Notes under the pieces: generated by a model | Databases searched by the model: none | Seen by the model: only the letters and a program-made list of their open reading frames with translations | Told to the model about the DNA's origin: nothing | Shown here: one piece after another, positions 14,422-29,802 of the stretch | How the letters are laid out: each line of letters opens with the position of its first letter | Position numbering within the stretch: the stretch's first letter is position 1 | From: an uncultured Geobacteraceae bacterium | GTDB lineage: Bacteria; Desulfobacterota; Desulfuromonadia; Geobacterales; Pseudopelobacteraceae | Reading direction: 5' to 3' | Length of the DNA: 34,698 bases | Assembly (NCBI GenBank): GCA_903925005.1 | Contig: CAIYDX010000173.1 | Span: forward strand, 1-34,698 | Position numbers and translations under genes: made by a program

Positions 14422-14450
14422 AGAGCACCTCTTGTCTGTTAAGTAGTACA

Positions 14451-14917: not shown

Positions 14918-16600
14918 TCACGATTTCTTCGCTCCGCTCATACCCTTGGCAGCCACAACCTTGTTGCGTCCGCCATGCTTGGCTGCATATAGCGCCTCGT
15001 CAGCCCCGGCGTTAAGAGCAGTTGGATCTCCATAGAGTGATAATGGGGCGATGCCGCAACTGAAGGTACACGAGAAGGTCATATCTTTTGACTGAAAACT
15101 GATGGCGGCAAAACTCTCCCGCAACTCGTTCATCAGCACAACCGCCTCGGAGAGGCTGCAGCCGGGAAGAATAACGGCAAACTCCTCGCCGCCGAATCGG
15201 CCGACGGTGTCCGCTTTACGCACACGTTGCCTTATGAGGCGCGCAAGAGCGGTTATCACCCGGTCACCGACCGGATGACCATAAGTGTCGTTCACCGCCT
15301 TAAACTTATCCACATCGATCATCGCAAAGCAGATCTCTTCCTGCTTGCGTTGGGCATGGGAAACCGCCGCATCCAGCAGTTCCTTGGTGGCGGTATGGTT
15401 GAACAGGCCGGTCATGCTGTCCCGCACCATCTGGGAGCGGATGATCTTCATCCGTCCGGCACGCACAGCCACGGAAGAAACCAGACGGTGGCCTTCGATC
15501 GGCTTGGTCAAAAACGCATCCCCTCCGATCTGCATGGCCAGATGCTGTTTGTCGGAATCAGTTTCGCTGGAGAGATAAACGATCGGAATACTGAAATAAG
15601 CGCCGATCTGCCGAATGGCCTTCGCCAGCTCCATGCCATTGCAGCCGGGCATGTACACATCCATTAAAATCAGGTCCGGCTTGAATTCGAATAGAGGCGA
15701 CATAACCTGCAGCGGATCGTTTACTACCAGGGTGATCATTCCCGCTTCCTGAAGTATCAAGGCATGATATTCGGACAGCAAAGGATCGTCGTCCACGATC
15801 ATTATCCGGTACGGCTCCGGTTTTTCCGACGAAGTAAGAAGGGTGAGGGTCGTACAGAGGTCGGTCATATTGAGCGGTTTTACGAAATAGGCACTGGACC
15901 CGGCCCGCACGGCTGACAAACGATTGGCCAGCGTGCCGTTAGAGGATATAAAGATTGTCGGGATCGGGTTCTCAAGACCTGACTGAATGGCTTGCATAAT
16001 TTCCGAGCCTCCAAACGGCTTTTCCGGAAAGATGATATCCATAACTATCGCGTCGGGAGGGGCACTCTTCACGGCATTGGCCAACTGTTCCAGTTCGCCG
16101 AAAGAAGTGATCTCAAAACCGAAACAGCCTATCTGGGCAGCCAGCGTCAGGCGCTGATACGAATCGTCCTCGCAGAGATAGACAACCTTTTGCTCCCGTT
16201 CAGAGGTTTCCTCCGCGGCAGTTGCCAGCTCCTGAAACTGCAGCGCCATTCCCTGCATCGGATCGACGGTGGAAATTTCGAGCTCCATCCGGGCAAACAA
16301 TTCCTGCATCTTCTGATGCCAGAATCTGTCGGGAGGGTCTGCGGACTTCATCGCCTCCTTTGCCAGCTGCTCCCCCGTCAAGGCAACAGAGCTCAACAAA
16401 CCCAATCGAAATGAAGCGCACGCCCCTTTCATGGTGTGGATACGGCGATGCAAATCCTCCAGCGAATCGTTCCCCTGTTCTCCCAGGACAAACTCGGAGT
16501 AGGAGGCCCGGATTCTTTCCAGCTGGACCGGAAGCTGCTTTATGTAAGCTTCACGTATTTTTTTCAGTTTTGTCGCAATGGCTTCTGTTTGTGCGCTCAA
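14918..16600 (-). CDS. Diguanylate cyclase with Hpt and two receiver domains (Hpt-REC-REC-GGDEF)
   Basis: This predicted cytoplasmic enzyme makes c-di-GMP from two GTP under phosphorelay control. The 560-residue protein has an Hpt domain with phospho-acceptor His55 (RRIHTMKGACASF); a first receiver domain (about 137-255; acidic pocket EDD at 144-146, phospho-Asp188, Lys241); a second (about 264-380; DDD at 270-272, Asp314, Lys366); and a GGDEF domain (about 390-555) with the active motif GGEEF (470-474) and an RxxD inhibitory site (RKAD, 461-464), so catalysis and product inhibition both look intact. The frame runs on to 16762 inside tusA, but a TTG at 16600 preceded by AAAGGA is chosen because the extension overlaps tusA and looks non-coding. 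It is last in the hydrogenase cluster. Confidence 0.9.
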   Translation of the reverse strand: MSAQTEAIATKLKKIREAYIKQLPVQLERIRASYSEFVLGEQGNDSLEDLHRRIHTMKGACASFRLGLLSSVALTGEQLAKEAMKSADPPDRFWHQKMQELFARMELEISTVDPMQGMALQFQELATAAEETSEREQKVVYLCEDDSYQRLTLAAQIGCFGFEITSFGELEQLANAVKSAPPDAIVMDIIFPEKPFGGSEIMQAIQSGLENPIPTIFISSNGTLANRLSAVRAGSSAYFVKPLNMTDLCTTLTLLTSSEKPEPYRIMIVDDDPLLSEYHALILQEAGMITLVVNDPLQVMSPLFEFKPDLILMDVYMPGCNGMELAKAIRQIGAYFSIPIVYLSSETDSDKQHLAMQIGGDAFLTKPIEGHRLVSSVAVRAGRMKIIRSQMVRDSMTGLFNHTATKELLDAAVSHAQRKQEEICFAMIDVDKFKAVNDTYGHPVGDRVITALARLIRQRVRKADTVGRFGGEEFAVILPGCSLSEAVVLMNELRESFAAISFQSKDMTFSCTFSCGIAPLSLYGDPTALNAGADEALYAAKHGGRNKVVAAKGMSGAKKS

Positions 16601-16628
16601 AGCTGTACATCCTTTCTGCTGCTTGTGA

Positions 16629-16850
16629 TCAAAACTGGATCTGCACCTTTTTTGCCATTCCCTCTTCCTTGACCCAAAGAAGAACCTTTCTCGCACGCGT
16701 GCACCAATCGCGCACATCCTTTTCAAAAGTAGGGCAATCGGCGACAACTTCAAGTAAATCACCCGGTTTCATCTTAACCGACATGACGGTAATTTTTAGT
16801 GTCGGTTGAGGGCATTTAAGTCCTCGTGCGTCGAGCATTGCAACAGCCAT
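16629..16850 (-). CDS. TusA/SirA-like sulfur carrier protein
   Basis: This 73-residue protein belongs to the TusA/SirA/YedF family, small proteins that carry a persulfide on a conserved cysteine. It starts AVAMLDARGLKCPQPTLK, with the CPxP motif and sulfur-carrying Cys at about 13, and keeps the KPGDLLEVVADCPTFEKDV strand-helix pattern. Two further cysteines (about 39 and 50) lie in the second half. The start is supported by AAGGAGA upstream. It sits between mvhD and the diguanylate cyclase gene, so its sulfur or electron partner may be the HdrA-MvhD module, as with TusA beside Hdr-like complexes in sulfur metabolisers. That link is inferred from position. No dsrE-like or tRNA thiolation gene is nearby. 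Confidence 0.85.
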   Translation of the reverse strand: MAVAMLDARGLKCPQPTLKITVMSVKMKPGDLLEVVADCPTFEKDVRDWCTRARKVLLWVKEEGMAKKVQIQF

Positions 16851-16872
16851 AACATTCTCTCCTTGTGGTTTT

Positions 16873-16889
16873 ATTATATTGTTTACAAT
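16873..16889 (-). promoter_or_regulatory. Candidate -10 and short palindrome before tusA
   Basis: In the 42-nt mvhD-tusA gap the minus strand holds a perfect TATAAT (16878-16873) abutting the inverted repeat ATTGT-AA-ACAAT (16889-16878). No good -35 is found at 16-18 nt, so this may be an activator-dependent internal promoter for tusA and the cyclase gene, or just A/T-rich spacer. Confidence 0.25.
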
Positions 16890-16892
16890 AAA

Positions 16893-17312
16893 TTAACGCG
16901 CTAACGAGATCGGCCCGAGCATACGAACAGATTCGACCATCTCAGCAATGACCCTGCTAAACTTTTCCCCTTCTCCCGCTGAGACATAATCCAGCCGACA
17001 GCGCTCTTTTTCTACTCCCAGCTGTTCCAGCATCAGATTCAACATACTGTGACGCTGCAGGGCTCGGCAGTTCCCCTCTTTATAGTGGCAGTCTCCGGGA
17101 TGACAAGCAAGGATTATAACACCATCGGCGCCTTTTTCAAGTGCGGAAAGGATGAACTGCGGATCGACCCTGCCGCTGCACATGACCCGTATGACCTGGA
17201 CATTGGGAGGATACGGTTCCTGCGAACCACCAGCCTTGTCGGCACCGGCGTATGAACACCAGTTACAGAGAAATCCGATTATTTTAGGTTCAAAGCCTTT
17301 CTCTTCCGTCAT
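16893..17312 (-). CDS. mvhD: MvhD-type hydrogenase/Hdr iron-sulfur subunit
   Basis: MvhD is the small [2Fe-2S] protein that passes electrons from the MvhGA hydrogenase to HdrA. The 139-residue protein shows the family's cysteine pattern: FLCNWCSYAGAD near the N terminus (Cys16, Cys19), VMCSGRVDP in the middle, and ILACHPGDCHYKEGNC (three Cys) further on, ending in the conserved MVESVRMLGPI region. Its start overlaps the hdrA stop by 4 nt, so the two are coupled. Together with mvhG, mvhA and hdrA it marks the hydrogenase as group 3c-like rather than the NAD-linked Hox type. Confidence 0.92.
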   Translation of the reverse strand: MTEEKGFEPKIIGFLCNWCSYAGADKAGGSQEPYPPNVQVIRVMCSGRVDPQFILSALEKGADGVIILACHPGDCHYKEGNCRALQRHSMLNLMLEQLGVEKERCRLDYVSAGEGEKFSRVIAEMVESVRMLGPISLAR

Positions 17313-19261
17313 TTCAAGACTCCTTCAATCTCCGCCATGATCTGTTCACCGGTAAAGTGGTGGCCGGTAATAGCTGCTGCCGGACAAGCGGTCACACAGG
17401 TGCCGCATCCGCGGCAGAGAACGACGTTGATATTAGAAACATTCCGTTCGGTATTGAACGATATCGCATGATAGGGGCAGACGGAAACACAGAGATGGCA
17501 ACCGGCGCACCGGGTCTCATCGACCTCGGCACAGATCGGCTCAATTTCTATCATACGTCCCGGTTGGAGTCCGGCCAGGGTATGACCGACACCGGCCATA
17601 CCTTCCAGCATCGCCGACCGGATATCCATCGGTTCCTGACAGGAGCCGGCCAGATAAACACCTTTCATGGTGCTCTGGGCGGCATCCATTCTTCCATGCA
17701 GTTCCCGGAAGAACCCGAATGAATCACAGCCGACATCCAGCATCGCGGCAAGCGTACCCGCGCCTTCCGCCGGAACCACCGCCGGGCAGAGGATGACCAT
17801 GTCCGCCAACGCAACCTCACCCTTGGCACTGACCGCAAGCCTCCCATCTTTCCTTTGGGTGACCGCAAGCTCTTTAATGTTGCTATAGCGTTTCAGGCTC
17901 GTTTTTTTGTTCAGGGCTGCTTTCTGAAAAATGAGCTGCGCCTCTTTACCCGGCATGACCAGTTCGCGGTGATAATGGGTGACCCTGGCATTGGGAAGTT
18001 TGGCGGCAATCATATGGTTGAATTTGAAGGCATACTGACAGCAGATACCCGAGCAGTAAGCCTTATGCTCGCTGTCAAGACTGCCGACACAGTGGATGAT
18101 GGCTACCGACGAAGGGGGGATTCCTTCACCGGTAAGAATGTCGCCGCCGGTCGGGCCGGTTGATGACAGCATCCGTTCAAATTGCAGGGCATCATACACG
18201 TTCGGCAATGTCCCCATCCCCATGCCGGAAACCTGAGAGGCATCATACAGTCCGGCGCCGGTAGCCAGAATTATCGCGCCGATCCTCCGTTCGACAATCT
18301 TTTCCACCTCTTCCAGGTTGACGACATCTTCGCCCATCGGACAGGCGTCCTTGCAGGCCCTGCACTCTTCGCCCCGTGAACGGATACAGATCTCCTCCAT
18401 CAGGAACGGCGCATTTGGTAGAACACCGGCAAAAGCGAAGTCCATTGCCTTGCGCTCGCTGGCGCTGCCGTTGAAGTCATTCATAGTGGTCGCGGGACAG
18501 ACCTGTACGCACTCGCCGCAGCCGATGCATTCGTGCAGCGAAACATGGCGCGGTTTCCGCCGGATCCTGGCAATGAAGTTCCCATAAAAACCGGTCACCT
18601 CGACCAGCTCCGCCATAGTCATCAGTTCGATATTCCCGGAATGATCGCCATGGAGCAGATCCCCCATCAGCGGTTCCAGCATGCAGGGAGCGCACTCCAG
18701 GGCCGGAAAGAGCTCATCGAAACGGACCGGCAGACCGCCGACAAAAGGCGTACGCTCTACCAGCACCACCGACCGCCCCGCTTCGGCCAGCGACAGGGCC
18801 GCTTTCATACCGGCAGGGCCGGCGCCGATTACGAGAGCATCCGGGCAGATCTCCAACTGTTTCTTTTCGAGCGGCTGCTGCAACCGCACCCGGAAAACCG
18901 CTCCACGAATGGCTCTAATCGTCTTCTCGGTTGCGATTGCCGGATCTTCGGTTACCCAGGCGATCTGCTCGCGAATGTTGACCATCTGCATCAGGTACGG
19001 ATTCATCCCCGCATTGGTCAGGCAGCGACGGAAGGTAGCTTCGTGATCGCGGGGAGAGCATGCGGCTACGACCACCCGATCGGGGCGTTCTGTCTTCAGG
19101 CTCTCCTCGAACCGTAGCTTGCCGTCTTCCGAACAGATAAAATCTACGGTTGTTACATAGGGGTGATCGGGGAATGATTTTGCCGCTTCGGCCACCGCTT
19201 CGGAGCTGATCTTGTCGGCGATATTGCTGCCGCAGTTACAGAAATAAATGCCTACCTTCAT
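17309..19261 (-). CDS. hdrA: Heterodisulfide reductase subunit A-like flavoprotein (HdrA)
   Basis: HdrA is the FAD-containing subunit where electron bifurcation takes place in Hdr complexes. The 650-residue protein has an N-terminal cysteine-bearing region (YFCNCGSNIAD; CSEDG; AACSPRDHE), a Rossmann FAD site (VIGAGPAGMKAALS, about 144-157), an embedded ferredoxin motif CIGCGECVQVCP (245-255), a further cluster-like CRACKDACP (300-307) and two C-terminal [4Fe-4S] ferredoxin motifs (CAGCHLCVSVCP and CRGCGTCVTACP). The length fits methanogen-type HdrA. The ATG at 19261 is chosen because it overlaps the protease gene stop (ATGA) and follows GGAGGGGGG; an in-frame ATG five codons upstream is less likely. 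HdrB and HdrC, which reduce the disulfide, are not in the window, so the electron acceptor is unknown. Confidence 0.93.
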   Translation of the reverse strand: MKVGIYFCNCGSNIADKISSEAVAEAAKSFPDHPYVTTVDFICSEDGKLRFEESLKTERPDRVVVAACSPRDHEATFRRCLTNAGMNPYLMQMVNIREQIAWVTEDPAIATEKTIRAIRGAVFRVRLQQPLEKKQLEICPDALVIGAGPAGMKAALSLAEAGRSVVLVERTPFVGGLPVRFDELFPALECAPCMLEPLMGDLLHGDHSGNIELMTMAELVEVTGFYGNFIARIRRKPRHVSLHECIGCGECVQVCPATTMNDFNGSASERKAMDFAFAGVLPNAPFLMEEICIRSRGEECRACKDACPMGEDVVNLEEVEKIVERRIGAIILATGAGLYDASQVSGMGMGTLPNVYDALQFERMLSSTGPTGGDILTGEGIPPSSVAIIHCVGSLDSEHKAYCSGICCQYAFKFNHMIAAKLPNARVTHYHRELVMPGKEAQLIFQKAALNKKTSLKRYSNIKELAVTQRKDGRLAVSAKGEVALADMVILCPAVVPAEGAGTLAAMLDVGCDSFGFFRELHGRMDAAQSTMKGVYLAGSCQEPMDIRSAMLEGMAGVGHTLAGLQPGRMIEIEPICAEVDETRCAGCHLCVSVCPYHAISFNTERNVSNINVVLCRGCGTCVTACPAAAITGHHFTGEQIMAEIEGVLK

Positions 19262-19746
19262 GCTCCCCCCTCCCATTCGGTAATCTGGGCACTGATCCGG
19301 TCCACGGCCTCCGGGACTGCAGCAGCCACTTCATCGGTGAACCGTTCGCCAAAAAGATCAAATTCGCGAGCCTCGATACCCCAGAAGGATACCTGTTCCG
19401 GCAACGGAACACCCACCATCCGTCCCAGATCATAGGCGGTGGCAAAATCGGTATCATGGCTGGAAAACGTATTCTTGGTGTTGATAAAATCATTCGGGTC
19501 AAAACGCCGGACCGTACCGGGTGTTGCGCCGCTCAGCATCGCATCTACCACCACGGCCCGTTTGAAACCGGCCATCGCTTCCATCAGTCTGATCCCCCCG
19601 GTATGCAGCTCCGTCACGGTCAGCTTCATGTAAAGCTTCAGGCGCTCCGCCACGGCATGGGCAACGGCGATCCCGACTCCGTCGTCGGAAAGGAGCGGGT
19701 TGCCCATCCCAATGATCACGGTTTCCGCTATAACTGATGCGGTCAT
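19258..19746 (-). CDS. Hydrogenase maturation protease (HyaD/HycI family)
   Basis: This endopeptidase removes the C-terminal tail of the [NiFe] large subunit once nickel is inserted. The 162-residue protein has the family's N-terminal GMGNPLLSDDGVG motif with a nickel-sensing acidic residue, a second acidic site in VVVDAML and the conserved SSHDTDF histidine region. Its ATG (19746) overlaps the mvhA TGA by one base, with GGAGG five bases upstream; a GTG one codon earlier is possible. It lies directly between mvhA, its presumed substrate, and hdrA. The substrate tail is predicted as the last 26 residues of MvhA. Confidence 0.93.
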   Translation of the reverse strand: MTASVIAETVIIGMGNPLLSDDGVGIAVAHAVAERLKLYMKLTVTELHTGGIRLMEAMAGFKRAVVVDAMLSGATPGTVRRFDPNDFINTKNTFSSHDTDFATAYDLGRMVGVPLPEQVSFWGIEAREFDLFGERFTDEVAAAVPEAVDRISAQITEWEGGA

Positions 19747-21236
19747 CACTTCCTCCGCATCTCCCGCAGCATCCCGCCCTGGCTGTCGCGGATCGACACG
19801 GTCAGCGGCATCTTGCCGGGGAGAAAGTGTGTGGCACAGGACAAACAGGGATCGTACAGCCGGAAGGCCATTTCCACCCTGTTGAGGATCGCTTCATCCG
19901 AAGCGTTGCCGGTGATCAGTTTTTCCGCGGCTCGTTTTATCGACATCGACATCGGGGCATAGTTATTAGTAGTGCCGACGATCATATTGACCTTTGTCAG
20001 CACTCCTCGTTCGTCGGTTTCATAATGATGGGTAAGCGTCCCGCGCGGGGCTTCGACCGAACCGATCCCCACACCGACAAACCGGGCCGGATCAGGAATG
20101 TTGCGGGTCTCCGGAGAAGTAATTTCCGGATCGAGCGCCAGTTCCAGCATCCGCTCCGAAGCATAGAGCAGTTCGATCAGCCGCGCCCAGTGGGTGGCCA
20201 GACGATGATGAATCGGCTCATACCGGGCAGCAGTGACTTTTTTGCAGCCGAAGGTTTCGTACATCCGCTGGTATTCGTCATTGGCCAATGGCGTCGCCAT
20301 CCCCTCGGAGACATTCAGCCTTGAGAGCGGCGTAGCGGTGTAGATGCCACTCTCGATTCCGTCGTTAAGCCCCTTCCACCCCACTTTTTTCAGATATGGA
20401 TATTTCAGGTAAGTCCACGCCTCGACACGTTCGGCAATATGTTCGCGGTATTCGGAAGGGTGATATTTTACAAATTCGGCCCCTTCCTGGTCCACAACAC
20501 GGATTATACCGTCATAGAAGTTGGCCTGATTGCCGGCATCCACGGTCCCCATCGAATAGGTGCGGTGCAGATAGATGTCTGAGGTTACAAGTTCCAGATA
20601 TACCGGGTTTTTCAGGACGATTTTTTCGAAGATGGACAGCGAGAATTTGGCAAATTCGATATTTTTACGGGCAGTTGTTTCAATCTCTGTTCGCTCTTCC
20701 GCAGTAATGGAGCGGCTCCAGCCGCCGGGGACTCCGGCCACCGGATGGATCGATCTACCGCCAAGAAACTTGATGATCTCGTGATTCCGTTTACGACAGG
20801 CGATCACCTCGCCGGCGACCTCCAGCCCGACCTTGCGGGCCACCCCCAGAATATTGCGCTCCGAAGGAGGGGCATCCGGCCCGACGATGAAGTCGGGGCC
20901 GCCCAATGCATAAAAGTGGGTTGTATGATCGGTGACGAAAAAGGCCATGTAGAGCAGTTCCCGCAGTTTCTTTGCCGTTGGGGTCGGCTCGGCGCCAAAG
21001 ACCTTGTCCAGCGCCTTGGTGGCCGCCAGGTGGTGCGCCTCGGGACAGACCCCGCAGATCCGGTTGGTAATGACCGGCATCTCTTCGGCCATTCTCCCTA
21101 CGCAGAACTGTTCGAAACCGCGCAACTCCGGAATCTGAAAAAAGGTATTCTCCACCCCCCCCTGATCGTTCAGAAAAATGTCGATCCGGCCATGCCCTTC
21201 CAGACGGGTTATCGGGTCAATCACGATGCGTTGCAT
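19746..21236 (-). CDS. mvhA: [NiFe] hydrogenase large subunit, group 3 (MvhA-like)
   Basis: The large subunit carries the Ni-Fe(CN)2CO site that oxidises or evolves H2. The 496-residue protein begins with ITRLEGHGRIDIF, has the L1 ligand motif RICGVCPEAHH (Cys61, Cys64) and the L2 motif DPCLSCATH (Cys464, Cys467) followed by a 26-residue tail that should be cut after His470. There is no twin-arginine signal on its partner, so the enzyme is cytoplasmic. The ATG at 21236 is preceded by GGAGGTG; a TTG one codon earlier is ignored. MvhD and HdrA neighbours point to group 3c. In methanogens this enzyme supplies electrons for flavin bifurcation; the same role here is inference. Confidence 0.95.
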   Translation of the reverse strand: MQRIVIDPITRLEGHGRIDIFLNDQGGVENTFFQIPELRGFEQFCVGRMAEEMPVITNRICGVCPEAHHLAATKALDKVFGAEPTPTAKKLRELLYMAFFVTDHTTHFYALGGPDFIVGPDAPPSERNILGVARKVGLEVAGEVIACRKRNHEIIKFLGGRSIHPVAGVPGGWSRSITAEERTEIETTARKNIEFAKFSLSIFEKIVLKNPVYLELVTSDIYLHRTYSMGTVDAGNQANFYDGIIRVVDQEGAEFVKYHPSEYREHIAERVEAWTYLKYPYLKKVGWKGLNDGIESGIYTATPLSRLNVSEGMATPLANDEYQRMYETFGCKKVTAARYEPIHHRLATHWARLIELLYASERMLELALDPEITSPETRNIPDPARFVGVGIGSVEAPRGTLTHHYETDERGVLTKVNMIVGTTNNYAPMSMSIKRAAEKLITGNASDEAILNRVEMAFRLYDPCLSCATHFLPGKMPLTVSIRDSQGGMLREMRRK

Positions 21237-21288
21237 CAAACACCTCCAAAATCAGTACCGCTGAAACCAGACAGAAAAAAATCAAAGG

Positions 21289-21402
21289 CAATGGAACGCG
21301 GATAAAATCCGATTTAATCGGATTTGTACGGATCAGCCAAAACAATAATTTTGATTTTAATCCGCGAAAATCCGTTCAATCTGCGTCATCCGCGTTCTAT
21401 TG
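21289..21402. repeat. Intergenic repeat with long inverted arms between mvhG and mvhA
   Basis: Arms 21289-21303 and 21388-21402 match at 14 of 15 positions as inverted repeats. The interior is built from variants of ATCCG, CGCGGAT and AATCCG (for example at 21301-21335 and 21358-21378). It fills most of the 170-nt gap between mvhG and mvhA, unusual for subunit genes of one enzyme. Its look is that of a dispersed intergenic repeat family, which I cannot test from this window. Confidence 0.75.
21305..21325. repeat. Perfect 9-bp hairpin inside the mvhG-mvhA repeat
   Basis: AAATCCGAT (21305-21313) and ATCGGATTT (21317-21325) are perfect inverted arms around TTA. In the mvhG-mvhA transcript it would form a compact stem about 70 nt before the mvhA start, possibly a processing or stability element that sets subunit ratios. 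Confidence 0.7.
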
Positions 21403-21406
21403 CAGT

Positions 21407-22402
21407 TCAGGTTTGTTTTCCCACCCGACCGCCCAGTGTCGAACTGGCCAGGGTGTATTTGTAGAACAGTCCGGCGTAGTCGGGAATCGTTTTCAGGAAA
21501 TCATCCACCCGTCCGGCAATTGCCTTTTCCGACAGACCGGTGGTATCGCCGATGTCCATCACCGAACCGAGCGCCGCCACCATCTTTGCCCCCTGGTCGC
21601 GGATCCCCTCCGGCGCGCCGTAACAACCGGTGCAGGGCATGTTGGCCTTGGTGCAGGGGGCGCCGCAGCCGTTCCGGGTGGCGATCCCCATACAGAGCAG
21701 TCCCTGTTCCAGCAGGCAGGCTTTGCGATCAGGGTAGAACTCATAATTGCGCCGGAAGGCGGTGATACGCTTCTCCTCCTTGGTCCGGTCGCAATCGTCA
21801 CAGACAGTCAGGGTACCGCAGCCGATCGTACTCCCTTTGGGCGGCAGATCACCGGAGAGGATCGTCTCGATCACATTCCAGATCTGCTCCGATTCAGGAG
21901 GACAGCCGGGAATATAGTAATCGACCTCGACCTCCTGGGCCAGATGTTTTACCCGTTCCAGGAGCGGCGTCAGGTGAATGTCCCCCTCAGGAAAACCGGT
22001 CGTGCCGGAGGGGATGACCGCCGCAGGATTATCAACCGAGGGATTATCAAGGTAAACGGCATTCAGCAGTTCATCTTTTGTGGTGAAGTTGGCCAGCGCC
22101 GGGATGCATCCCCCCTTGGCACAGGAACCGAAGGCCACCAGGATTTGCGATTTCCTCCGCAGCAGATGGGCCATTTCGACATTCTCTTCGGTGCGCAGAG
22201 CCCCGTTGAAGAGGGTCACGGCAATGGCCCGGTCCGGGAGCGCTTCAATATCCTTCTTCTTGGTGTCCAAAAGGCAGGGGCAGAACATGAAATCCATCGC
22301 CGCATCAACGTCCAGGATTTTCTCGTGCAGGTTGACTACGGCAATCTCGCAACCGCCGCATGACGCGGCCCAGTAAACCGCCAGTTTCGGCTTCTCAGGC
22401 AT
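21407..22402 (-). CDS. mvhG: [NiFe] hydrogenase small subunit, group 3 (MvhG-like)
   Basis: The small subunit carries Fe-S clusters that take electrons from the Ni-Fe site to MvhD. The 331-residue protein has the proximal-cluster CGGCE motif at the N terminus (Cys15, Cys18), FGSCAKGGCIPAL, IPGCPPESEQIW, CGTLTVCDDC and a ferredoxin-like cysteine-rich C-terminal half (LLCMGIATRNGCGAPC; MPCTGCYGAPEG). It lacks a twin-arginine leader, consistent with a soluble cytoplasmic enzyme. The start is supported by GGGAGG six bases upstream. It begins 69 nt after the response-regulator gene of the chemosensory cluster on the same strand, with no clear terminator between, so readthrough from that cluster is possible. 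Confidence 0.93.
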   Translation of the reverse strand: MPEKPKLAVYWAASCGGCEIAVVNLHEKILDVDAAMDFMFCPCLLDTKKKDIEALPDRAIAVTLFNGALRTEENVEMAHLLRRKSQILVAFGSCAKGGCIPALANFTTKDELLNAVYLDNPSVDNPAAVIPSGTTGFPEGDIHLTPLLERVKHLAQEVEVDYYIPGCPPESEQIWNVIETILSGDLPPKGSTIGCGTLTVCDDCDRTKEEKRITAFRRNYEFYPDRKACLLEQGLLCMGIATRNGCGAPCTKANMPCTGCYGAPEGIRDQGAKMVAALGSVMDIGDTTGLSEKAIAGRVDDFLKTIPDYAGLFYKYTLASSTLGGRVGKQT

Positions 22403-22471: not shown

Positions 22472-22846
22472 TCAGCTGCGCGAAAGAAGCGCTCCCACCA
22501 TCTCCGGCAGCGTCTCCTGCAATTCTTCATCCTTCGTCAGCACGCCATCCATATCCGGATGTGCCAACCTGAGAGGAGCGGCATCTTCACCGGTCAAGAG
22601 TACGAAAGGCTGATGATAGCCATGTTCCCGCAACTCGGCGAAAAGCTGGACCCCGTCGATGAACGGCATGTTCATGTCCGAAACCACCACGCGGATCGTC
22701 GGATCTTCCGCCATCTTCTCCATGGCGTCCATCCCCCCTTCGGAAATCACGACTTCGTATCCTGCTGCATCAAGAATCATTCCGGTCAGCTGGGCGGTGA
22801 ATTCGTCGTCATCAACCACCAGAATAGTTTCAAGTGTGTCACTCAT
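22472..22846 (-). CDS. Single-domain response regulator (CheY-like)
   Basis: This 124-residue protein is a stand-alone receiver domain. It keeps the phosphorylation pocket: Asp12-14 (VVDDDEF), phospho-Asp57 (VVSDMNMP), Thr85 (LLTGED) and Lys105 (LTKDEE). There is no output domain, so it acts by protein binding or as a phosphate sink. It follows cheA by 14 nt and is the last gene of the chemosensory cluster. Its KDE context resembles the receiver of the kinase at 31771-33345 (VLKDEG), which hints at shared ancestry. Whether it binds a flagellar switch cannot be told; no flagellar genes are present. Confidence 0.9.
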   Translation of the reverse strand: MSDTLETILVVDDDEFTAQLTGMILDAAGYEVVISEGGMDAMEKMAEDPTIRVVVSDMNMPFIDGVQLFAELREHGYHQPFVLLTGEDAAPLRLAHPDMDGVLTKDEELQETLPEMVGALLSRS

Positions 22847-22860
22847 TATATGCTCCTTTA

Positions 22861-25113
22861 TTATCCGATCAGGTTGCGAACGGTTTCTATCAGATTGGAT
22901 TGATCAAATGCCCCTTTGACGATATAGGCGTTGGCGCCCACCTGTATGCCACGCCGTTTATCCTCGTCCTTCTCGCGCGAGGTGACGATGATGACAGGCA
23001 CATGCCGGTAACGATCGTCGGCACGCAGCCGTTCGGTAAACGAAAAACCGTCCATGCGCGGCATCTCGACATCGGTAATTACCAGGTCGTACAAGGTCGC
23101 ACCGATCTTCTCCAGCGCATCCTGGCCGTCCTCGGCCGTATCCACTAAGTAACCATAAGCTTCCAGAATGCTTTTTTCGATCTCTCTTGTGTTAATTGAA
23201 TCATCAACCACCAGAACCGTTGCCGTGCGATCTTCCTTGACGGCGGGTCTCAGCCGTCCGGGCTCGCCAAATTCCCGGGCCTGCCGGATAAGTTCCGGGA
23301 CATGAAGGACATTTATGATGCTGTCACGCTCCCCGATAGTGACCCCCGATACCATGGAGAGGTTCTGCAGATGAGGCGGCAGCTGCTTTACCACCATCTC
23401 CTCGCGACCGATGATTTCGTCTACCTCCAACCCCAGTTTTTCTTCCCCGTCCCTGATGATGACAATCAACGCCTCATTCGCCTCGGCAGACGTTTCTTTC
23501 GAGATTTTGAGGAGAGTTGTCAGCTTCTCTACCGGGATAATCTGTTCCCTGAGACGAATGGCGCGTTTGTTGACGATCTCAATGATCTCCTCACGTTGAA
23601 CCGAAAGCATTTCGACAAGCGACGTAGCCGGCAAGGCACATGTTCTTCCGTTGGCGCAGATAAGGAACAGAGGAAACACCGCCAGATTGGGGGGGAGCCG
23701 CAGAAGAAAGGTAGTGCCGCTCCCTTCCCTGGTTTCGACGAAAATAGTCCCTTTCAACTCATCAACGATGCTTTTCTTGACAACATCCATCCCCACCCCG
23801 CGACCTGAAAGATCGGTGATGATGGCGCTCGTGCTGAAACCGGGCATAAATATCAAGTTATGTATCTCCGCACGGGACATCCCGGCTATTGTCTCCGGCT
23901 CGAACAGACGTTTTGACAGGGCCTTTTCGCGTATTTTGTCGGCTGATAGCCCTCTGCCATCGTCACCAAGGGAAATGGTGACACAGCCGCTGTCATAAAA
24001 CGCTGAAAGATTGATGGTCCCCTTGGCCGGTTTTCCAGCCGCCGCCCGCTCTTCCGCGTTTTCCAGGCCATGGTCCAGTGAATTGCGAATCATATGCATC
24101 AGAGAATCACCGATACGGTCGATAATCTTCCTGTCCAGCTCGGTATCTCCCCCCTCTACAACGAAATCGATATCTTTGCCCTGTTCGTGGGCAAGATCCC
24201 TTACAGTGCGGCGCAGAGGGTCAAATACGGTCGAGAGCGGCTGCATGCGCATCCTGAGCGAGGTCTCCTGCAAATCGCCGACAAGATGATCCTGCATGAG
24301 TGACGCGTCAAACATGGCCCGCACCGACTGGCGCAGAGAAAGCTGGATTGCGGCGCAAGCCTTTAAAAGTGGTTCATGTTCATTATCACCGGTACTGAGC
24401 TTTCCGGCGACGGCTTTGAGATGTCGCGTCGTTGCTCGCTCAATTTCAGTGAGCCTTCCGATATGCCTCTTGAACCTGCCATGCTCGGAGACGATCTCCC
24501 CCATGAGTCTGATCAAGTCATCAAGTTTGGCGGCATTGATGCGCAGATAGTCAACCTGCCGTCCTTTGGGGGCCATTGGCAGTGGTGCGGGCTCTGCAGG
24601 AGCAGAAATAGTTTGTTCAACCGGTGGAGCGGCCTGGGCCGATGAGACCGAGAGAAGAGGCGGGGCGGAGGAAGCCGCGACAGGGGCAGCCGGCTGAGCC
24701 GGAGCCGCCGGCAATGCACCTTCGGCCGGTATCGTTGCTGCCAGGCTCAACACTTCGCAGAGCGCCTCCGGCGCTTCCACGGACGTATCTCCCGCTGTTA
24801 TCCGATCCAGCATTGCCAAAAGAGCATCTACTCCCCGAAAGAGGGCATCGGAGACTGATGAGGTCAACGGGATGTTACCACTGCGGACCGCGTCAAGTAC
24901 ATCCTCCATCTTATGGGCAAGTTCGGTGACGCCGGAAAGTTTCATCATCCGGGACGATCCCTTAATCGTGTGTGCTGAACGGAACAGACCGTTAATCATC
25001 TCGGCATCGCCGGGCAGTTTTTCCAGATTGAGCAGCCCTTCGCTTATCCGCGAGCAATGTTCGCGCGCCTCTTCGACGAAACGCGCAAGAAATTTGGAGT
25101 GATCGAAGGCCAT
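22861..25113 (-). CDS. cheA: Hybrid chemotaxis histidine kinase CheA-REC
   Basis: This kinase is controlled by the MCP through CheW and passes phosphate from His to Asp. The 750-residue protein has an N-terminal Hpt domain with His48 (RSAHTIKGSSRMM), a Pro/Ala-rich linker (about 135-180), a dimerisation helix, an ATP-binding domain with N-box IRNSLDHGLE and G-boxes GDDGRGL and GRGVGMDVVK, a CheW-like domain (about 475-610) and a C-terminal receiver domain (about 630-750) with phospho-Asp681 and Lys733. No P2 CheY-docking domain is evident. This Hpt-kinase-CheW-REC architecture is that of WspE and FrzE-like kinases rather than the E. coli type. The gene begins 2 nt after cheR. Confidence 0.94.
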   Translation of the reverse strand: MAFDHSKFLARFVEEAREHCSRISEGLLNLEKLPGDAEMINGLFRSAHTIKGSSRMMKLSGVTELAHKMEDVLDAVRSGNIPLTSSVSDALFRGVDALLAMLDRITAGDTSVEAPEALCEVLSLAATIPAEGALPAAPAQPAAPVAASSAPPLLSVSSAQAAPPVEQTISAPAEPAPLPMAPKGRQVDYLRINAAKLDDLIRLMGEIVSEHGRFKRHIGRLTEIERATTRHLKAVAGKLSTGDNEHEPLLKACAAIQLSLRQSVRAMFDASLMQDHLVGDLQETSLRMRMQPLSTVFDPLRRTVRDLAHEQGKDIDFVVEGGDTELDRKIIDRIGDSLMHMIRNSLDHGLENAEERAAAGKPAKGTINLSAFYDSGCVTISLGDDGRGLSADKIREKALSKRLFEPETIAGMSRAEIHNLIFMPGFSTSAIITDLSGRGVGMDVVKKSIVDELKGTIFVETREGSGTTFLLRLPPNLAVFPLFLICANGRTCALPATSLVEMLSVQREEIIEIVNKRAIRLREQIIPVEKLTTLLKISKETSAEANEALIVIIRDGEEKLGLEVDEIIGREEMVVKQLPPHLQNLSMVSGVTIGERDSIINVLHVPELIRQAREFGEPGRLRPAVKEDRTATVLVVDDSINTREIEKSILEAYGYLVDTAEDGQDALEKIGATLYDLVITDVEMPRMDGFSFTERLRADDRYRHVPVIIVTSREKDEDKRRGIQVGANAYIVKGAFDQSNLIETVRNLIG

Positions 25114-25115
25114 GT

Positions 25116-26654
25116 TTATCTATTCTCCAAGAGAGATATTTTATGTCGGCATATTACGATAAACTGTTCCGCGTTGAACGAAAGAGGGAAAAATTTCTGC
25201 CCCTGCTCTTTCAGAGCCCCTTTACCAAGAATATTGAGCACCGCTTCATAGCCGCTTTGCGCACGTTTCGCATCCAATTGCACGAACAGTATTTCGGCGG
25301 TATAAAAATGGGCAAGCCAACAAGAGGAGTCCAGATAGATGGCCTCTCGGAAACGCTTGATAGCATCATCAATCTCCCCATTCTGCCGCGCCACCATCCC
25401 GAGCATCAGATACGCCTCCAGACAGAGCGGGTCTCGTCCCAAAATGGCTTCACAGACGGTGCGGGCCTCATCGAAACGCGATGCGCTCAAAAGCAGGCTC
25501 CCCTTGAGGCAGTACGCTTTCTCAAAGGTTCCATCCTGTTCGATGATGGCATCGAGAATCGCAAGCGCTTTGTCGTGCTGTTTATTTTGGGCCAGCACAA
25601 TGGCCTCGTCAAAACTGCCCTTGATATCAATCGGCACCGGTGAGTGAGACTGTTTACGCGGACGTTCATGAACAGGCCTCTCAGGCGGTCGATTCTGGTG
25701 AACCTCCGGCCTGGCCGTATAAGTTGGAGCTGATGTGTGTAAAGCCACGCTCCGTAGCCGCTCGGGAGTAAATGAATGACGGCTGGACGTGCGGCGTTCT
25801 TCAAAAACAAGCGGCGGTAATTTGCGATAGAAAAAGAGCGACTTCTGCTTTACAAGCGAAAGAATGCCTATGTCATGGTGAATAGTTTCCGACGCACCGA
25901 CAAGCAGGCACCCGCCATCGGTGAGAAGCTCGGCAAGTTTGCCGAATATTTCCCGCTGCACCTTTCCGGGGAAATAGATCGATACGTTCCGGTACAAGAT
26001 TATGTCGGGCAACAGCATCCTTTGAGGATAAGAAGTGCCCAGCAGGTTTACCACCTCGAAGCCGACCTGATTTCTGATCGAGGCGCTGACCCGGAACTTC
26101 CCCTGTTCGTGCGGTTCGAAGTAGCGTTCAAGCAGGGTCTGGTCCATACCACGAAACGAGCTTTTTCCATAGGCACCCACTCTTGCCGTTGCAATAGCGG
26201 TGGAATCAATATCAACGCCGGTAATGGCAAACAGCCGCTCACTCTCGGCTCCAAACCGTTCCCGCAGCATTATGGCAATTGAATAAGGTTCCTCCCCGGT
26301 GGAGCAGCCGGCACTCAAAATCCTGATCGGCCTCAGGTCACGAACAGCCATGAACTCCGGCACCAGCATATCGACCAAAAGGTTCAGGTGTTCAGGTTCA
26401 CGAAAAAAATAAGTTTCATTGACCGTCAGCAGTTCAGTCAACCGCAGCAACTCATCCTGGTCGCGCAGCAACAGGGCGAGATAAGCTTCAGAGGAATCGA
26501 TCTTCAGCGCCGCCATCCGTCGCCACAAACTCGCGATAAGCGCCTGTTCCCGTTCCTTTTCGAAGCTGTGTCCGCACGTACGCAGCATCAGCTCTTTAAA
26601 TGGAGCAAGGTCGACAGCCTCGCCCATTTTATGAGACCGTGCGGTGGCCGTCAT
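25116..26654 (-). CDS. cheR: Chemoreceptor methyltransferase CheR with C-terminal TPR region
   Basis: CheR methylates glutamates of the MCP using SAM, setting receptor adaptation. The 512-residue protein has the CheR catalytic domain in the first 280 residues: NETYFFREPEHL (79-90), the SAM-binding SAGCSTGEEPYSIAIML (114-130) and DIILYRNVSIYFP, where the usual CRNVLIYF is slightly changed. A low-complexity linker (about 290-345) leads to TPR-like repeats (about 345-480, for example AILDAIIEQDGTFEKAYCLKG and AYLMLGMVARQNGEIDDAIK). TPR-bearing CheR occurs in Wsp- and Frz-type systems (WspC, FrzF). It sits 2 nt from both cheB and cheA. Confidence 0.93.
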   Translation of the reverse strand: MTATARSHKMGEAVDLAPFKELMLRTCGHSFEKEREQALIASLWRRMAALKIDSSEAYLALLLRDQDELLRLTELLTVNETYFFREPEHLNLLVDMLVPEFMAVRDLRPIRILSAGCSTGEEPYSIAIMLRERFGAESERLFAITGVDIDSTAIATARVGAYGKSSFRGMDQTLLERYFEPHEQGKFRVSASIRNQVGFEVVNLLGTSYPQRMLLPDIILYRNVSIYFPGKVQREIFGKLAELLTDGGCLLVGASETIHHDIGILSLVKQKSLFFYRKLPPLVFEERRTSSRHSFTPERLRSVALHTSAPTYTARPEVHQNRPPERPVHERPRKQSHSPVPIDIKGSFDEAIVLAQNKQHDKALAILDAIIEQDGTFEKAYCLKGSLLLSASRFDEARTVCEAILGRDPLCLEAYLMLGMVARQNGEIDDAIKRFREAIYLDSSCWLAHFYTAEILFVQLDAKRAQSGYEAVLNILGKGALKEQGQKFFPLSFNAEQFIVICRHKISLLENR

Positions 26655-26656
26655 AG

Positions 26657-27694
26657 TCAGACTCCGGCCCGCTGCATCAGTTCAGCCGGAATATCCGCGA
26701 GCGCCAGCACCTTGTCTATGCAGCCTCGTTCCACCGCCATCCGGTTCATACCGAAAATCACGGAACTCGTAGCATCCTGCGCAAGAGTAGCTCCACCGGC
26801 TTTCCTGATTGCCTGCATACCTGAAGCTCCGTCATCCCCCATACCGCTGAGGATCAACCCGGTAGCCCGTTCACGATAAGCCGAGGCAACCGAAGTAAGG
26901 AGCGTGTTGCAGGATGGGTGGTAGACCTGACGTGCTTCCTTTTCACCGAGAATAATCATGCCATGCTCGGTGATCCTCATCGAATGTTCGGCCGGGTTGA
27001 CATAGACGTTACCCGCGGCAAGTTGGTCGCCATGTCTCGCCACTCGTACCTTGAGTGGTGTTACCGTACTCAGCCAGTCCACCATTCCCTGGGTAAACCC
27101 TTCGGCGATATGCTGTGTTATTACGATCGGAACCGGGAATTGGGCAGGCAGACGCGACAGAATTGAGTGAATGGCCTGCGGGCCGCCGGTGGAGGCAGCG
27201 ATGACAATGATTCCCCCTTTCGAAAAACACTTCTTGATCGCCACTCCGCCTGCATCCACGGTTCCGGATTGCCTCCTCATCGTCAGTAGATGGGCCGGAA
27301 CATCGACTTTTGCCAGGAGACGGATCTTACTGATAAGATTACGTACATTTTCCAGACTGATATCCGGTTTTTCAATGACGTCCAGTGCGCCTTTGGATAC
27401 CGCGGCAAAGGCGGTGCGCACCCCGGTCAAAGCGGTTACCACCAGAATCGGCACCGGATGCTCGGCAATGATCCTCTCTATGGCTTCAAGCCCTCCGACG
27501 ACCGGCATCTCGATATCCATGGTCACAATATCCGGTTTGAGCGAGGCGACCATATTAACAGCCTCGGCGCCGTCCGCGGCCTCTCCAGCCACGACGATAC
27601 CCGGCTCGGACTCAAGGATGGCACGAATCATGTCGCGGACCAGTGCACTGTCGTCAACAACCAAAACCCGAATGATACTTTTTGAATTTGCCAT
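26657..27694 (-). CDS. cheB: Chemoreceptor methylesterase CheB
   Basis: CheB removes methyl groups (and deamidates glutamines) from the MCP, opposing CheR; it is activated by phosphorylation from CheA. The 345-residue protein has an N-terminal receiver domain with Asp14-15 and phospho-Asp60 (IVTMDIEMP), a linker and a C-terminal esterase domain with the Ser-His-Asp triad: Ser168 (AASTGGPQA), His195 (TQHIAEGF) and Asp287 (LSGMGDDGASGM). Length and motifs are standard. It lies between the MCP and cheR genes with gaps of 3 and 2 nt. Having both cheB and cheR implies that this cluster adapts independently. Confidence 0.96.
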   Translation of the reverse strand: MANSKSIIRVLVVDDSALVRDMIRAILESEPGIVVAGEAADGAEAVNMVASLKPDIVTMDIEMPVVGGLEAIERIIAEHPVPILVVTALTGVRTAFAAVSKGALDVIEKPDISLENVRNLISKIRLLAKVDVPAHLLTMRRQSGTVDAGGVAIKKCFSKGGIIVIAASTGGPQAIHSILSRLPAQFPVPIVITQHIAEGFTQGMVDWLSTVTPLKVRVARHGDQLAAGNVYVNPAEHSMRITEHGMIILGEKEARQVYHPSCNTLLTSVASAYRERATGLILSGMGDDGASGMQAIRKAGGATLAQDATSSVIFGMNRMAVERGCIDKVLALADIPAELMQRAGV

Positions 27695-27697
27695 GAG

Positions 27698-29389
27698 TTA
27701 GAGGGTCTCCGGAGCCGGCGAACTCCCCTGTTCACTGCTGAGATTATCAGCTTTAAAGGTGTGAACCAATGTCCTCAACTGTTCGGAGAGTCCCAGCAGT
27801 TCGTCGGTCGCGCTGTTTGTTTCATGAATGGAATCGGTAGCAAAGCGAACGCCCTGATCGATATCCTTAAGAGCCAGGACCACCTGACTGCTGGCTATCT
27901 GCTGCTGCTGGGTAGAAAGGGAAATCTGCCGGGCGGCGCTGGCGGTTTCATCCACGCCGTCCACGCTTTCAATCAGCATCGCCACCGTGTGAGAGGCATA
28001 TTCCTGACCTTCCTGAATGAGAAGAAAACTCTTTTCCGAAGACATTACCAATCGGTTGACCGAATCAAGGATCTCCGTTATTTTCCCCTCGATTTCGGAG
28101 GTTGATTCTACCACACTGTCCGCCAGACGCCGGATCTCTACCGCCACCACACCGAAGCGTTTTCCCGATTCTCCCGCGCTGGCCGCCTCAAGTGCAGCGT
28201 TGAATGCAATCAGCTTGGTCTGGTTGGCAATGTTATTGATTATCTCCATAACCTTGTTGATCTCTTTCGACTTTCTACCCAGTTCGACTATTTCGCCCAA
28301 ATTTGTCTGTATGTTGTGGCTTATGTCATTGATCTTGAAGTTAAGGTTTTCGACTTCGGCAGCGCCTATTTTGGTGTCGTCCAGCGTCTTGTCGGCCCTT
28401 TCCACCACACTCTGGCTGTGCTGGGCTATCTGGCTTGCCGTGGAGGAAAACTCTTCCATGGTTGACGATATTTCCACCACCGAGCTGGAAAGCTGGGTGG
28501 AAAATCCGGATTGCTGGTCCATGGTTAACGCAATGGCACCGGCATGCGAGCAGATCCTTTCGGTAATACAGGAAACTTTCCCGATAACCTGATTCAGCCC
28601 TTTGATATGTTCATTGAACCAGCTGGCAAGTTCGCCCACTTCATCGTTACTGGTCACCGATACCGCTACCGTCAGATCGTTTTTGAAGTTTTTAAGTGTA
28701 TTTGAAATCTCTTCAATCGGCCCGGAAATAAACCGTTTGACCATCAGAAATGCCGCTGCCTGCAGGAGCGCCAGCAGGGCGAGCGTTATAGCGACATACT
28801 GTATGATGCTTTTGGAAACCTCCCGTTTGATCGCGTTCTGCTCCTTGACAACCGCGGTATTGATATCGTCCATGTAAACACCGGTACCGATGATCCAGTT
28901 CCTGGAAGGAATAGCCTTGGCATAGGATATCTTCGGCTTCATCTCCTCCTGCCCCGGCATCTTCCACATGTAGTCCACATATCCTTCACCCTTTTCACGG
29001 CAGATTCTGGTGATTTCCCGCAAGATATAAACACCGTTGGGGTCGCGAAGGTCACTCTGGTCTTTCCCCTCCAGGCGTGGATCGGGGTGACTGATCATGA
29101 TGTTCTTGAAATCGTTGATCCAAAGGTAACCGGTTTGGCCGTAGCGCATGTTTTTTGATACCTTGATGGCCTCATCAGGCGGCATCTTCTCCAGCACCCT
29201 CACCGCCATGTCCACATACCCTTTGATCTGTTGCCTCCTTTCAGAGACAAGTGTTGCTCGATATGCTGATATCCGTTCATCACCACGAGAGATGATATTC
29301 ACGATGGAAATGACCGAAATGACCGTAGCTATCGAGAAAATGCAGACAAGCGTTAATCCCAATACCTTTTTACGCAACGTAATTCTCAT
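27698..29389 (-). CDS. Methyl-accepting chemotaxis protein with single Cache domain
   Basis: This inner-membrane receptor senses a periplasmic ligand and controls CheA. The 563-residue protein has a membrane segment at about 9-30, a periplasmic single-Cache domain (about 40-190, with MRYGQTGYLWIND and NWIIGTGVYMDDI), a second membrane segment (about 195-218), a HAMP domain (about 219-271) and a long cytoplasmic coiled coil. The hairpin tip (about 383-412) reads IANQTKLIAFNAALEAASAG, where canonical receptors have QTNLLALNAAIEAARAG. There is no C-terminal CheR-tethering pentapeptide. The ATG at 29389 overlaps the CheW-like stop (TAATG) and follows GGGGGG; an in-frame ATG seven codons upstream is less likely. 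Confidence 0.93.
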   Translation of the reverse strand: MRITLRKKVLGLTLVCIFSIATVISVISIVNIISRGDERISAYRATLVSERRQQIKGYVDMAVRVLEKMPPDEAIKVSKNMRYGQTGYLWINDFKNIMISHPDPRLEGKDQSDLRDPNGVYILREITRICREKGEGYVDYMWKMPGQEEMKPKISYAKAIPSRNWIIGTGVYMDDINTAVVKEQNAIKREVSKSIIQYVAITLALLALLQAAAFLMVKRFISGPIEEISNTLKNFKNDLTVAVSVTSNDEVGELASWFNEHIKGLNQVIGKVSCITERICSHAGAIALTMDQQSGFSTQLSSSVVEISSTMEEFSSTASQIAQHSQSVVERADKTLDDTKIGAAEVENLNFKINDISHNIQTNLGEIVELGRKSKEINKVMEIINNIANQTKLIAFNAALEAASAGESGKRFGVVAVEIRRLADSVVESTSEIEGKITEILDSVNRLVMSSEKSFLLIQEGQEYASHTVAMLIESVDGVDETASAARQISLSTQQQQIASSQVVLALKDIDQGVRFATDSIHETNSATDELLGLSEQLRTLVHTFKADNLSSEQGSSPAPETL

Positions 29390-29802
29390 TATTCCCCCCT
29401 TATCAAACATTTTTCCTTTAATAAACGTATAAAATCCACAAGCAGCACCATACGTCCGTTACGAGGCAAAATCCCCCACACACCCCTTCTGATGGTAAAC
29501 GGCTCCAACAGTGCTGGAAACAGACTGATATCATTCTGGCTGAATTCGGCAATATCTTCCATTGTGTCGATGATTACCCGATACGGCCGTATGTCGTCTG
29601 TCCTGATGGTAACGACAGTCGGCGAAAAATATACAGAGTTTCCGGCGCCAAATCCAAGCTCGTCGTGAAACCAGAACAGGTCATCACTCTGTTCGCCGTC
29701 ATAGTTTGCGATTCCGGCTACCTGTGCGGCATCGATACCGAAATGGACGCCGCAGGCCGAAAAAAGCAGCAGGTCGAGCCTTATATCGCACTTGTCATTC
29801 AT
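29389..29802 (-). CDS. Divergent CheW-like protein
   Basis: This 137-residue protein has the outline of a CheW domain: LDLLLFSACGVHFGIDAAQVAGI at the start, a middle strand set including VVTIRTDDIRPYRVIIDTMEDIAEF, and a final GRMVLLVDFIRLLKE. The usual CheW motif around an NLRG is absent, replaced by GVWGILPRNGRMVLLVD. It overlaps the CheW gene (4 nt) upstream and the MCP gene downstream, so it is probably co-translated with both. It may be a second adaptor with different kinase or receptor contacts, as WspB and WspD are in the Wsp system. Function by family is likely; details are inferred. Confidence 0.65.
   Translation of the reverse strand: MNDKCDIRLDLLLFSACGVHFGIDAAQVAGIANYDGEQSDDLFWFHDELGFGAGNSVYFSPTVVTIRTDDIRPYRVIIDTMEDIAEFSQNDISLFPALLEPFTIRRGVWGILPRNGRMVLLVDFIRLLKEKCLIRGE

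Follow-up and report, generated by a model that had tools for sequence, protein, structure and literature searches.

A TusA-type sulfur carrier accompanies a distinct HdrA clade in hydrogenase operons that lack HdrB and HdrC

A contig of 34,698 bases from an uncultured Geobacteraceae bacterium (CAIYDX010000173.1 of assembly GCA_903925005.1), referred to here in its full length as the window, carries on its minus strand one intact cluster, MvhG-MvhA-HycI-HdrA-MvhD-TusA (22402-16629), in which a [NiFe]-hydrogenase and HdrA are accompanied by a small sulfur carrier of the TusA type. HdrA complexes hold a central place in anaerobic life at low energy, and in those characterised to date the acceptor half is, to our knowledge, the HdrB and HdrC pair (HdrBC). 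The comparisons presented below indicate that TusA is probably a functional partner of the HdrA clade to which the window protein belongs; this partnership is well supported by sequence, whereas its chemistry is an inference. A more tentative proposal, somewhat short of an even chance, is that TusA stands in for HdrBC as the carrier of HdrA’s high-potential substrate. That proposal is based on the mutual exclusion of TusA and HdrB among operons, the co-occurrence of HdrA and TusA among genomes, the single clade formed by the TusA-linked HdrA proteins, and the remodelling of their core. The original prediction, made from the letters alone, had placed the hydrogenase subunits, a protease, HdrA and MvhD next to one another, with a CPxP-bearing TusA-like gene following and HdrB and HdrC missing; all of these genes proved to be present, intact and in that order, neither HdrB nor HdrC occurs in the operon, and the CCG domain of HdrB was not found on the contig with Pfam.

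Gene order among relatives was read, with the window proteins as queries, in 80 loci fetched by way of MvhA (genomes and loci are designated below by G and L numbers, respectively); the peptide patterns used for the search came from the window MvhA, and its own clade is consequently over-represented. HdrA and MvhD were both present in 65 of the 80 loci, of which 42 possessed TusA without HdrB, 12 possessed HdrB without TusA, 11 had neither, and none had both. Ten of the HdrB calls were made with a pattern requiring two CCG motifs and two (L109 and L121) with the Pfam CCG domain; the L121 protein measures 426 aa and has a ferredoxin domain besides CCG. Short antisense open reading frames (ORFs) with a single CCG motif occur in L073 (136 aa) and L123 (155 aa) and were not counted, their matches being put down to chance. 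Five of the 11 loci with neither gene (L087, L094, L096, L100 and L101) start at the very edge of a contig, within hdrA or immediately ahead of it, and the other six fall within the TusA clade of the HdrA tree. TusA was found on another contig or further along in the genomes of L058, L099, L103, L111 and L119, and the contig of L084 ends 1.4 kb past MvhD, its sister L076 having TusA about 4 kb on. The placement of tusA next to mvhD, whose survey in relatives had been proposed as a check, was conserved: with ORFs taken from the first start codon, in 37 of the 42 loci the start of TusA falls between -136 and +84 bases from the MvhD stop, and in the remaining five TusA lies upstream of mvhG (L085 and L088), beyond an intervening methyl-accepting chemotaxis protein (MCP) gene (L056), about 4 kb on (L076, as above) or far upstream (L063). 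Chance alone does not explain this adjacency, which is found again in several phyla. Some MvhA relatives were inspected and set aside. A possible third form of MvhGA in G039 and G042 (~50% identity) adjoins another flavin/iron-sulfur protein; in G042 (L193, G042:C5:268000-287999) a different MvhD-MvhG-MvhA set stands beside aldehyde ferredoxin oxidoreductase-like and flavin/iron-sulfur proteins, and a related MvhA set occurs in G039 (L192). Three distant relatives (G064, G124 and G178; 39–40%) were left out.

The association also holds at the level of whole genomes. In a sample of 195 genomes from the window’s class, searched at E <= 1e-140 for the HdrA type and E <= 1e-12 for TusA, all 38 genomes with this HdrA were among the 41 with TusA (Fisher test, 2.5e-37, shared descent being ignored). 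Two of the three genomes with TusA only (G029 and G192) have broken contigs that hold pieces of the same operon, and the third (G060) is a true exception. The TusA of G005 belongs to a distant, otherwise kinase-linked branch of the subfamily, yet heads the same gene cluster, and in G116 MvhA is present with HdrA and TusA below threshold on a contig that stops ~0.7 kb past hycI. A second sample took in 198 genomes of the phylum to which G209 belongs (the Thermodesulfovibrio-titled genome that holds L073). Here HdrA rose above threshold in 13 genomes, all of them within the 29 that encode TusA, and TusA was located directly after MvhD in 12 of the 14 HdrA loci and after MvhA in one (G355). The fourteenth locus is a second operon of G347, of the HdrB type and without TusA; this genome therefore has one operon of each kind, and its sole TusA resides in the operon without HdrB. 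Window-type TusA was found in none of 14 HdrB-clade genomes, one of which shows a weak 32% TusA match.

Sixteen Nitrospirota genomes contained TusA with HdrA below threshold, and of the 12 that were opened, 11 proved to have HdrA with TusA. In seven of the loci (L217-L222 and L226), an HdrA of 602–612 aa, 32–37% identical to that of the window, lies beside a TusA that overlaps it by up to ~20 bases or is 6 bases away, and no Mvh, MvhD or CCG matches were found in the ~15-kb stretches surrounding them. These hydrogenase-free loci indicate that TusA follows HdrA itself rather than the hydrogenase, and within the fetched stretches they rule out hydrogenase maturation as TusA’s sole role. Downstream of them lie genes for a periplasmic binding protein and a histidine kinase, in most cases joined by a receiver (domains were checked for L217 only). 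A different arrangement, HdrA-MvhD-MvhG-MvhA-TusA, was seen in L223, L229, L232 and the G355 locus (L216), and corresponds to the order of HdrB operons minus HdrB and plus TusA. In G401, pieces of HdrA and MvhD adjoin TusA at a contig end, and G397 has two TusA genes, neither with HdrA alongside. A small two-cluster ferredoxin gene is found upstream in some of the seven hydrogenase-free loci, and a molybdopterin/iron-sulfur/NrfD (polysulfide reductase-like) set occurs near L217.

The HdrA of the window has an FAD (flavin adenine dinucleotide) domain and retains 24 cysteines fitting six [4Fe-4S] sites, as in the methanogen MvhAGD-HdrABC complex, in addition to C195 and C198. The assignment of these cysteines to individual clusters is in part assumed; from the ligands known in 5odc and the alignment, we take C396, C408, C412 and C413 to be those of HA4. 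The cluster-ligand cysteines are invariant in 86 of 86 aligned TusA-clade HdrA rows, some of them duplicates. For the window protein the best NCBIfam model is HdrA2, where it reaches 535 bits, the cut-off being 1100. Trees were built from 76 and 82 HdrA proteins by quick search, without bootstrap; in these, all TusA-linked members group as a single clade with a long stem (Shimodaira–Hasegawa-like approximate likelihood ratio support, 100), and a single change of state separates HdrB from TusA when rows with neither are excluded. Divergence between the two groups is unevenly spread over the subunits, with mean identities of 0.64 for MvhA, 0.51 for MvhG, 0.47 for MvhD and 0.39 for HdrA, and it is uneven within HdrA as well. 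With domain borders set by the analyst, columns fixed in the HdrB type were lost in the TusA type at 1/24 positions of the N-terminal part, 11/38 of the first flavin part, 7/33 of the inserted ferredoxin domain, 14/58 of the second flavin part and 0/14 of the C-terminal ferredoxin domain, that is, 1/38 in the N- and C-terminal arm versus 32/129 in the flavin and inserted-ferredoxin core (Fisher p 0.0019, shared descent ignored). Loss in the core and not in the MvhD-facing arm suggests that the donor side was kept and the acceptor side changed. A flavin-domain cysteine, C497, is present in 78 of 86 TusA-clade rows versus 0 of 19 HdrB-type rows. It is the one feature noted that may bear on S-S cleavage of the ferredoxin:thioredoxin reductase kind, where an iron-sulfur cluster assists a neighbouring pair of redox-active cysteines.

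The window TusA contains the CPxP motif of its family, PF01206, and scores above the curated cut-off of that domain. It is not a TusA in the strict sense of the NF001423 equivalog model, for which it reaches 37.3 bits against a cut-off of 78. Its cysteines are C13 in CPQP, C39 in DCPTFE and C50 in DWC, and among 78 aligned relatives (the window protein, some duplicates and stand-alone copies included) C13 and C39 (the latter in DC-TF) are conserved in all 78 and C50 in 71. The position of C39 is occupied by aspartate in E. coli TusA (1dcj) and by cysteine in E. coli YedF (1je3), and C39 is thus not unique to the operon group. A TusA with two such cysteines could carry a persulfide or form a disulfide. 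A single-sequence structure prediction gave a mean predicted local distance difference test score of 50.7 and was not used. The window genome (G000) encodes four TusA-family genes; a second copy, 78% identical to that of the window, lies near a contig end (L124:279-500, G000:C96) with neither MvhD nor HdrA alongside.

A genome-wide search of G000 for the CCG domain returned 14 matches in seven ORFs, none of them HdrB-sized (HdrC was not searched with a model of its own). These open frames measure 420, 421, 427, 448, 667, 676 and 717 aa, none lies on the window contig, and judged by eye from their neighbours they resemble glycolate/lactate-type and Etf-linked iron-sulfur proteins. An HdrB elsewhere in G000 is thereby ruled out as far as the assembly allows. 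Its absence is likely rather than proven because the genome (5.4 Mb, with 6.2% contamination) is 94.9% complete and split into 419 contigs. MvhD occurs in the genome as a single copy, the window gene.

Taken with the conserved features of HdrA, these data are best read as pointing to an MvhGA-MvhD-HdrA complex in the cytoplasm, linked to H2, whose HdrBC module would have given way to a small TusA-type carrier. HdrA keeps its flavin domain and iron-sulfur ligands, those at the high-potential exit cluster and at the ferredoxin exit among them, and it falls in a clade whose members are almost without exception accompanied by TusA of this subfamily and were never seen with HdrB alongside. Electrons from H2 would pass from MvhA through MvhG and MvhD to the HdrA flavin and be split there, one going by way of the inserted ferredoxin domain to ferredoxin and the other, through the cluster that formerly fed HdrC, to a persulfide or disulfide on docked TusA, which would leave as a thiol plus sulfide. 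Alternatively, the whole path may run in reverse, making H2 or loading sulfur. In its fullest form, which we regard as doubtful though worth stating, this view would make HdrA, acting alone and without the non-cubane cluster of HdrB, a new class of flavin-based bifurcating enzyme that works, in the reducing or the oxidising direction, on sulfane sulfur bound to a dedicated TusA. Chemistry on the TusA persulfide or disulfide would then fall directly to C497 and the exit cluster beside the flavin, with H2 driving the Mvh form and ferredoxin or another donor driving the hydrogenase-free form; HdrA-TusA would be a sulfur-handling unit of its own, with or without hydrogenase, whose state is perhaps read by adjoining signalling genes. 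If true, the clade-wide swap of HdrBC for a 73-residue carrier would show HdrA to be a modular electron splitter, would connect protein-bound sulfur with the cycling of H2 in Geobacterales, Nitrospirota, Accumulibacter and other groups, and might account for the role of the Geobacter Mvh hydrogenase without HdrBC. The comparisons suggest, in short, a known energy-saving machine apparently rebuilt for protein-bound sulfur.

Several observations weigh against this interpretation. TusA has no metal site, and no substitute is visible for the clusters with which HdrB cleaves S-S bonds. C497 is absent from eight of the 86 rows, including those of Accumulibacter and Sulfuritalea, where TusA is nonetheless present; the four earliest-branching proteins (L216, L223, L229 and L232) lack both L400 and a three-residue insertion near position 208, and the hydrogenase-free HdrA likewise lacks that insertion. 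TusA also occurs apart from HdrA. In L224, L227 and L230 it accompanies the same binding protein and kinase without HdrA, extra copies stand without HdrA in other settings in L225, L228 and L231, and in G060 and G397 an HdrA of the TusA-linked type was not seen anywhere in the genome. The tusA of G179 lies by cheA and cheR on a different contig from hdrA, and in Geobacterales (L186-L190) a second, more distant TusA branch lies directly beside large histidine kinases (L187:7575, L189:7299 and L190:7107), with no HdrA match in the fetched stretches. Of the 42 TusA loci, 36 have at least one signalling gene somewhere in the stretch fetched, as a raw count. Finally, when PF02754 was searched in 20 distinct TusA-type genomes (G207 and G041, whose coordinates are identical, were treated as one), a two-domain CCG ORF within the size window of 265–345 aa was found in 15. 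This last result bears on the original prediction that the acceptor is not the usual HdrBC, or is encoded elsewhere: its first part agrees with the lack of HdrBC in the operon and the failure to find HdrB in the genome, and is weakened by the HdrB-sized proteins of the 15 relatives. It is conceivable that HdrA is served by HdrBC, or by a fused CCG protein, from another site in the genome, with TusA as a mere passenger, and in several of these relatives HdrB indeed sits beside a different HdrA paralogue, 35–37% identical; in the accessible text of PMC6085437, hdrBC of methanogens can likewise be unlinked from mvh. Some of the CCG ORFs (270–279 aa) may, however, be other proteins, and no ORF of this kind was found with PF02754 in G000, G042, G210 or G216, G042 being rated 100% complete, with fragments only in G052. 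An HdrB supplied in trans is hence no general explanation of the system, and as the face of HdrA is remodelled and TusA tracks HdrA even where Mvh is missing, we consider this explanation very unlikely.

TusA of E. coli is a general sulfur carrier, and the window protein might be an assembly or repair factor that supplies sulfur for a cluster or cofactor specific to HdrA, the electrons going to ferredoxin or another acceptor. The pairing of TusA with HdrA both with and without hydrogenase fits assembly as well as catalysis, but HdrB-linked HdrA with the same cysteine ligands is found in genomes without such a TusA, and the exclusion between TusA and HdrB points to the acceptor side, which together make this role improbable. 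A sensory role, alone or alongside catalysis, in which HdrA and TusA form a redox/sulfur sensor module for adjoining chemosensory, histidine kinase or cyclic di-GMP genes with H2 turnover as its input, is also unlikely, and is kept together with assembly as a leading rival. It draws on the neighbourhood, since in 22 of the 42 loci TusA has a signalling gene (Che, MCP, kinase or GGDEF) no more than 4 kb away, an MCP-like gene immediately precedes mvhG in Accumulibacter and Sulfuritalea, and the Nitrospirota loci and the stand-alone, kinase-linked copies described above, along with the tusA of G179, have signalling partners with or without HdrA. On the other hand, 17 of the 42 loci have neither a signalling gene within 4 kb nor a Che core, six have none over the whole stretch, the full catalytic hydrogenase is retained in the Mvh loci, and kinases and MCPs are common genes whose matches are favoured by queries taken from the window. 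A part in a chemosensory operon alone is insufficient to explain TusA.

The hydrogenase cluster itself is already known from Geobacter. The accessible text of PMC8691401 and PMC7894505 describes a Mvh cluster of G. sulfurreducens (GSU2416-2423) with an MCP-like member, MvhV, and a suggested role in hydrogen production, as well as a separate Hdr cluster (GSU0085-0092). The resemblance to the window system lies in a named Mvh hydrogenase, found in a close relative and including an MCP-like member; neither TusA nor the missing HdrBC is mentioned in what could be consulted of these papers. In four genomes of genus g13, which belongs to the window’s family, MvhG, MvhA, HycI, HdrA, MvhD and TusA occur together, one with an upstream MCP-like gene; g13 may be Geobacter sensu stricto, and one of GSU2416-2423 may be the TusA. 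Compared with the methanogen MvhAGD-HdrABC complex (5odc, 8rvu and 7bkb), the window HdrA and MvhD align over their full length with the HdrA iron-sulfur ligands in register, and MvhA and MvhG best match the Vhu models; the window differs in having no HdrB or HdrC (none in the operon, and no HdrB-sized CCG ORF genome-wide), in a diverged HdrA core and inserted domain, and in the addition of TusA. The closest HdrB-bearing relative found is an HdrB-HdrA-MvhD-MvhG-MvhA operon of Chloroflexota, with MvhA 64% identical on average, which has HdrB, no TusA, and an HdrA just 39% identical between groups. HdrA2 of Methanosarcina provides the best model for the window HdrA, but it and Flox-HdrABC both have HdrBC, and in HdrA2 MvhD is fused to the protein (PMC6019823, in its accessible part). 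TusA is the sulfur donor for sHdr, a sulfur-oxidising system that shares with the window an HdrA-like flavoprotein tied to sulfur. The sHdr gene set, hdrC1B1A-hyp-hdrC2B2 in the accessible part of PMC12345210, nevertheless includes two HdrB and two HdrC, of which the window operon has none and, for HdrB-sized CCG ORFs, the genome none either. An exchange of HdrBC for TusA was not found described in the accessible portions of the open-licence literature, a scope that leaves older Geobacter hydrogenase papers outside; the HdrA-TusA pairing goes unmentioned in the available parts of PMC12142623, PMC12350162 and PMC4667449, and the available text of an Accumulibacter paper on a Hox hydrogenase (PMC8407102) contains no TusA, HdrA or heterodisulfide.

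The genes of the window locus are listed in the table below, the window contig being G000:C173. MvhA carries both Ni-binding CxxC motifs (RICGVCPEAHH and DPCLSCATH) and a C-terminal tail, and with Vhu as its best model, though below the equivalog cut-off, it can be placed among the group 3c (Mvh/Vhu) [NiFe]-hydrogenases. Its closest relatives come from bins titled Geobacter, Desulfuromonadaceae or Deltaproteobacteria. The genes are tightly packed, with overlaps of 4 bases between MvhA and HycI, 19 between HycI and HdrA, and 4 between HdrA and MvhD, and tusA starts 42 bases past MvhD, preceded by AAGGAGAG.

Genes of the hydrogenase-HdrA-TusA cluster and its immediate neighbours in the window
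Feature	Coordinates	Strand	Evidence
mvhG, [NiFe]-hydrogenase small subunit, 331 aa	21407..22402	-	PF01058 (Oxidored_q6) 5.5e-23; best NCBIfam VhuG 2.2e-62, 211 bits vs cut-off 450
mvhA, [NiFe]-hydrogenase large subunit, 497 aa, group 3c-like	19746..21239	-	PF00374; best NCBIfam VhuA 1.7e-114, 382.6 bits vs equivalog cut-off 800
hycI-type hydrogenase maturation protease, 163 aa	19258..19749	-	PF01750; TIGR00072 above cut-off
hdrA, 655 aa, TusA-linked clade	17309..19276	-	NF040770 3e-160; alignment to 8rvu and 5odc chains; cysteine columns
mvhD/FlpD [2Fe-2S] subunit, 139 aa	16893..17312	-	PF02662 1.4e-50; PDB matches 8rvu_F, 5odc_D
tusA-like sulfur carrier, 73 aa	16629..16850	-	PF01206 6.8e-16, 58 bits vs cut-off 28.6; CPQP motif
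Hpt-receiver-GGDEF protein, directly downstream of tusA	14918..16762	-	Pfam
receiver, CheA, CheR, CheB and MCP genes, directly upstream of mvhG	22472..29410	-	Pfam/NCBIfam; synteny

The start of the longest ORF of the Hpt-receiver-GGDEF gene overlaps tusA, and its true start probably lies further inside the ORF. Upstream of the hydrogenase, the stretch from 22472 to 34613 encodes a receiver, CheA, CheR, CheB, an MCP, two CheW-like proteins and three kinases, and this chemosensory set recurs beside the hydrogenase in many relatives. A similar Che set is found downstream of TusA in several Nitrospirota (e.g. L064, L070 and L073), so that the linkage of chemosensory genes to the hydrogenase is shared by different phyla. 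Beyond the GGDEF gene, two small overlapping genes at 13914-14451 have, by eye, the look of a YoeB-YefM toxin-antitoxin pair.

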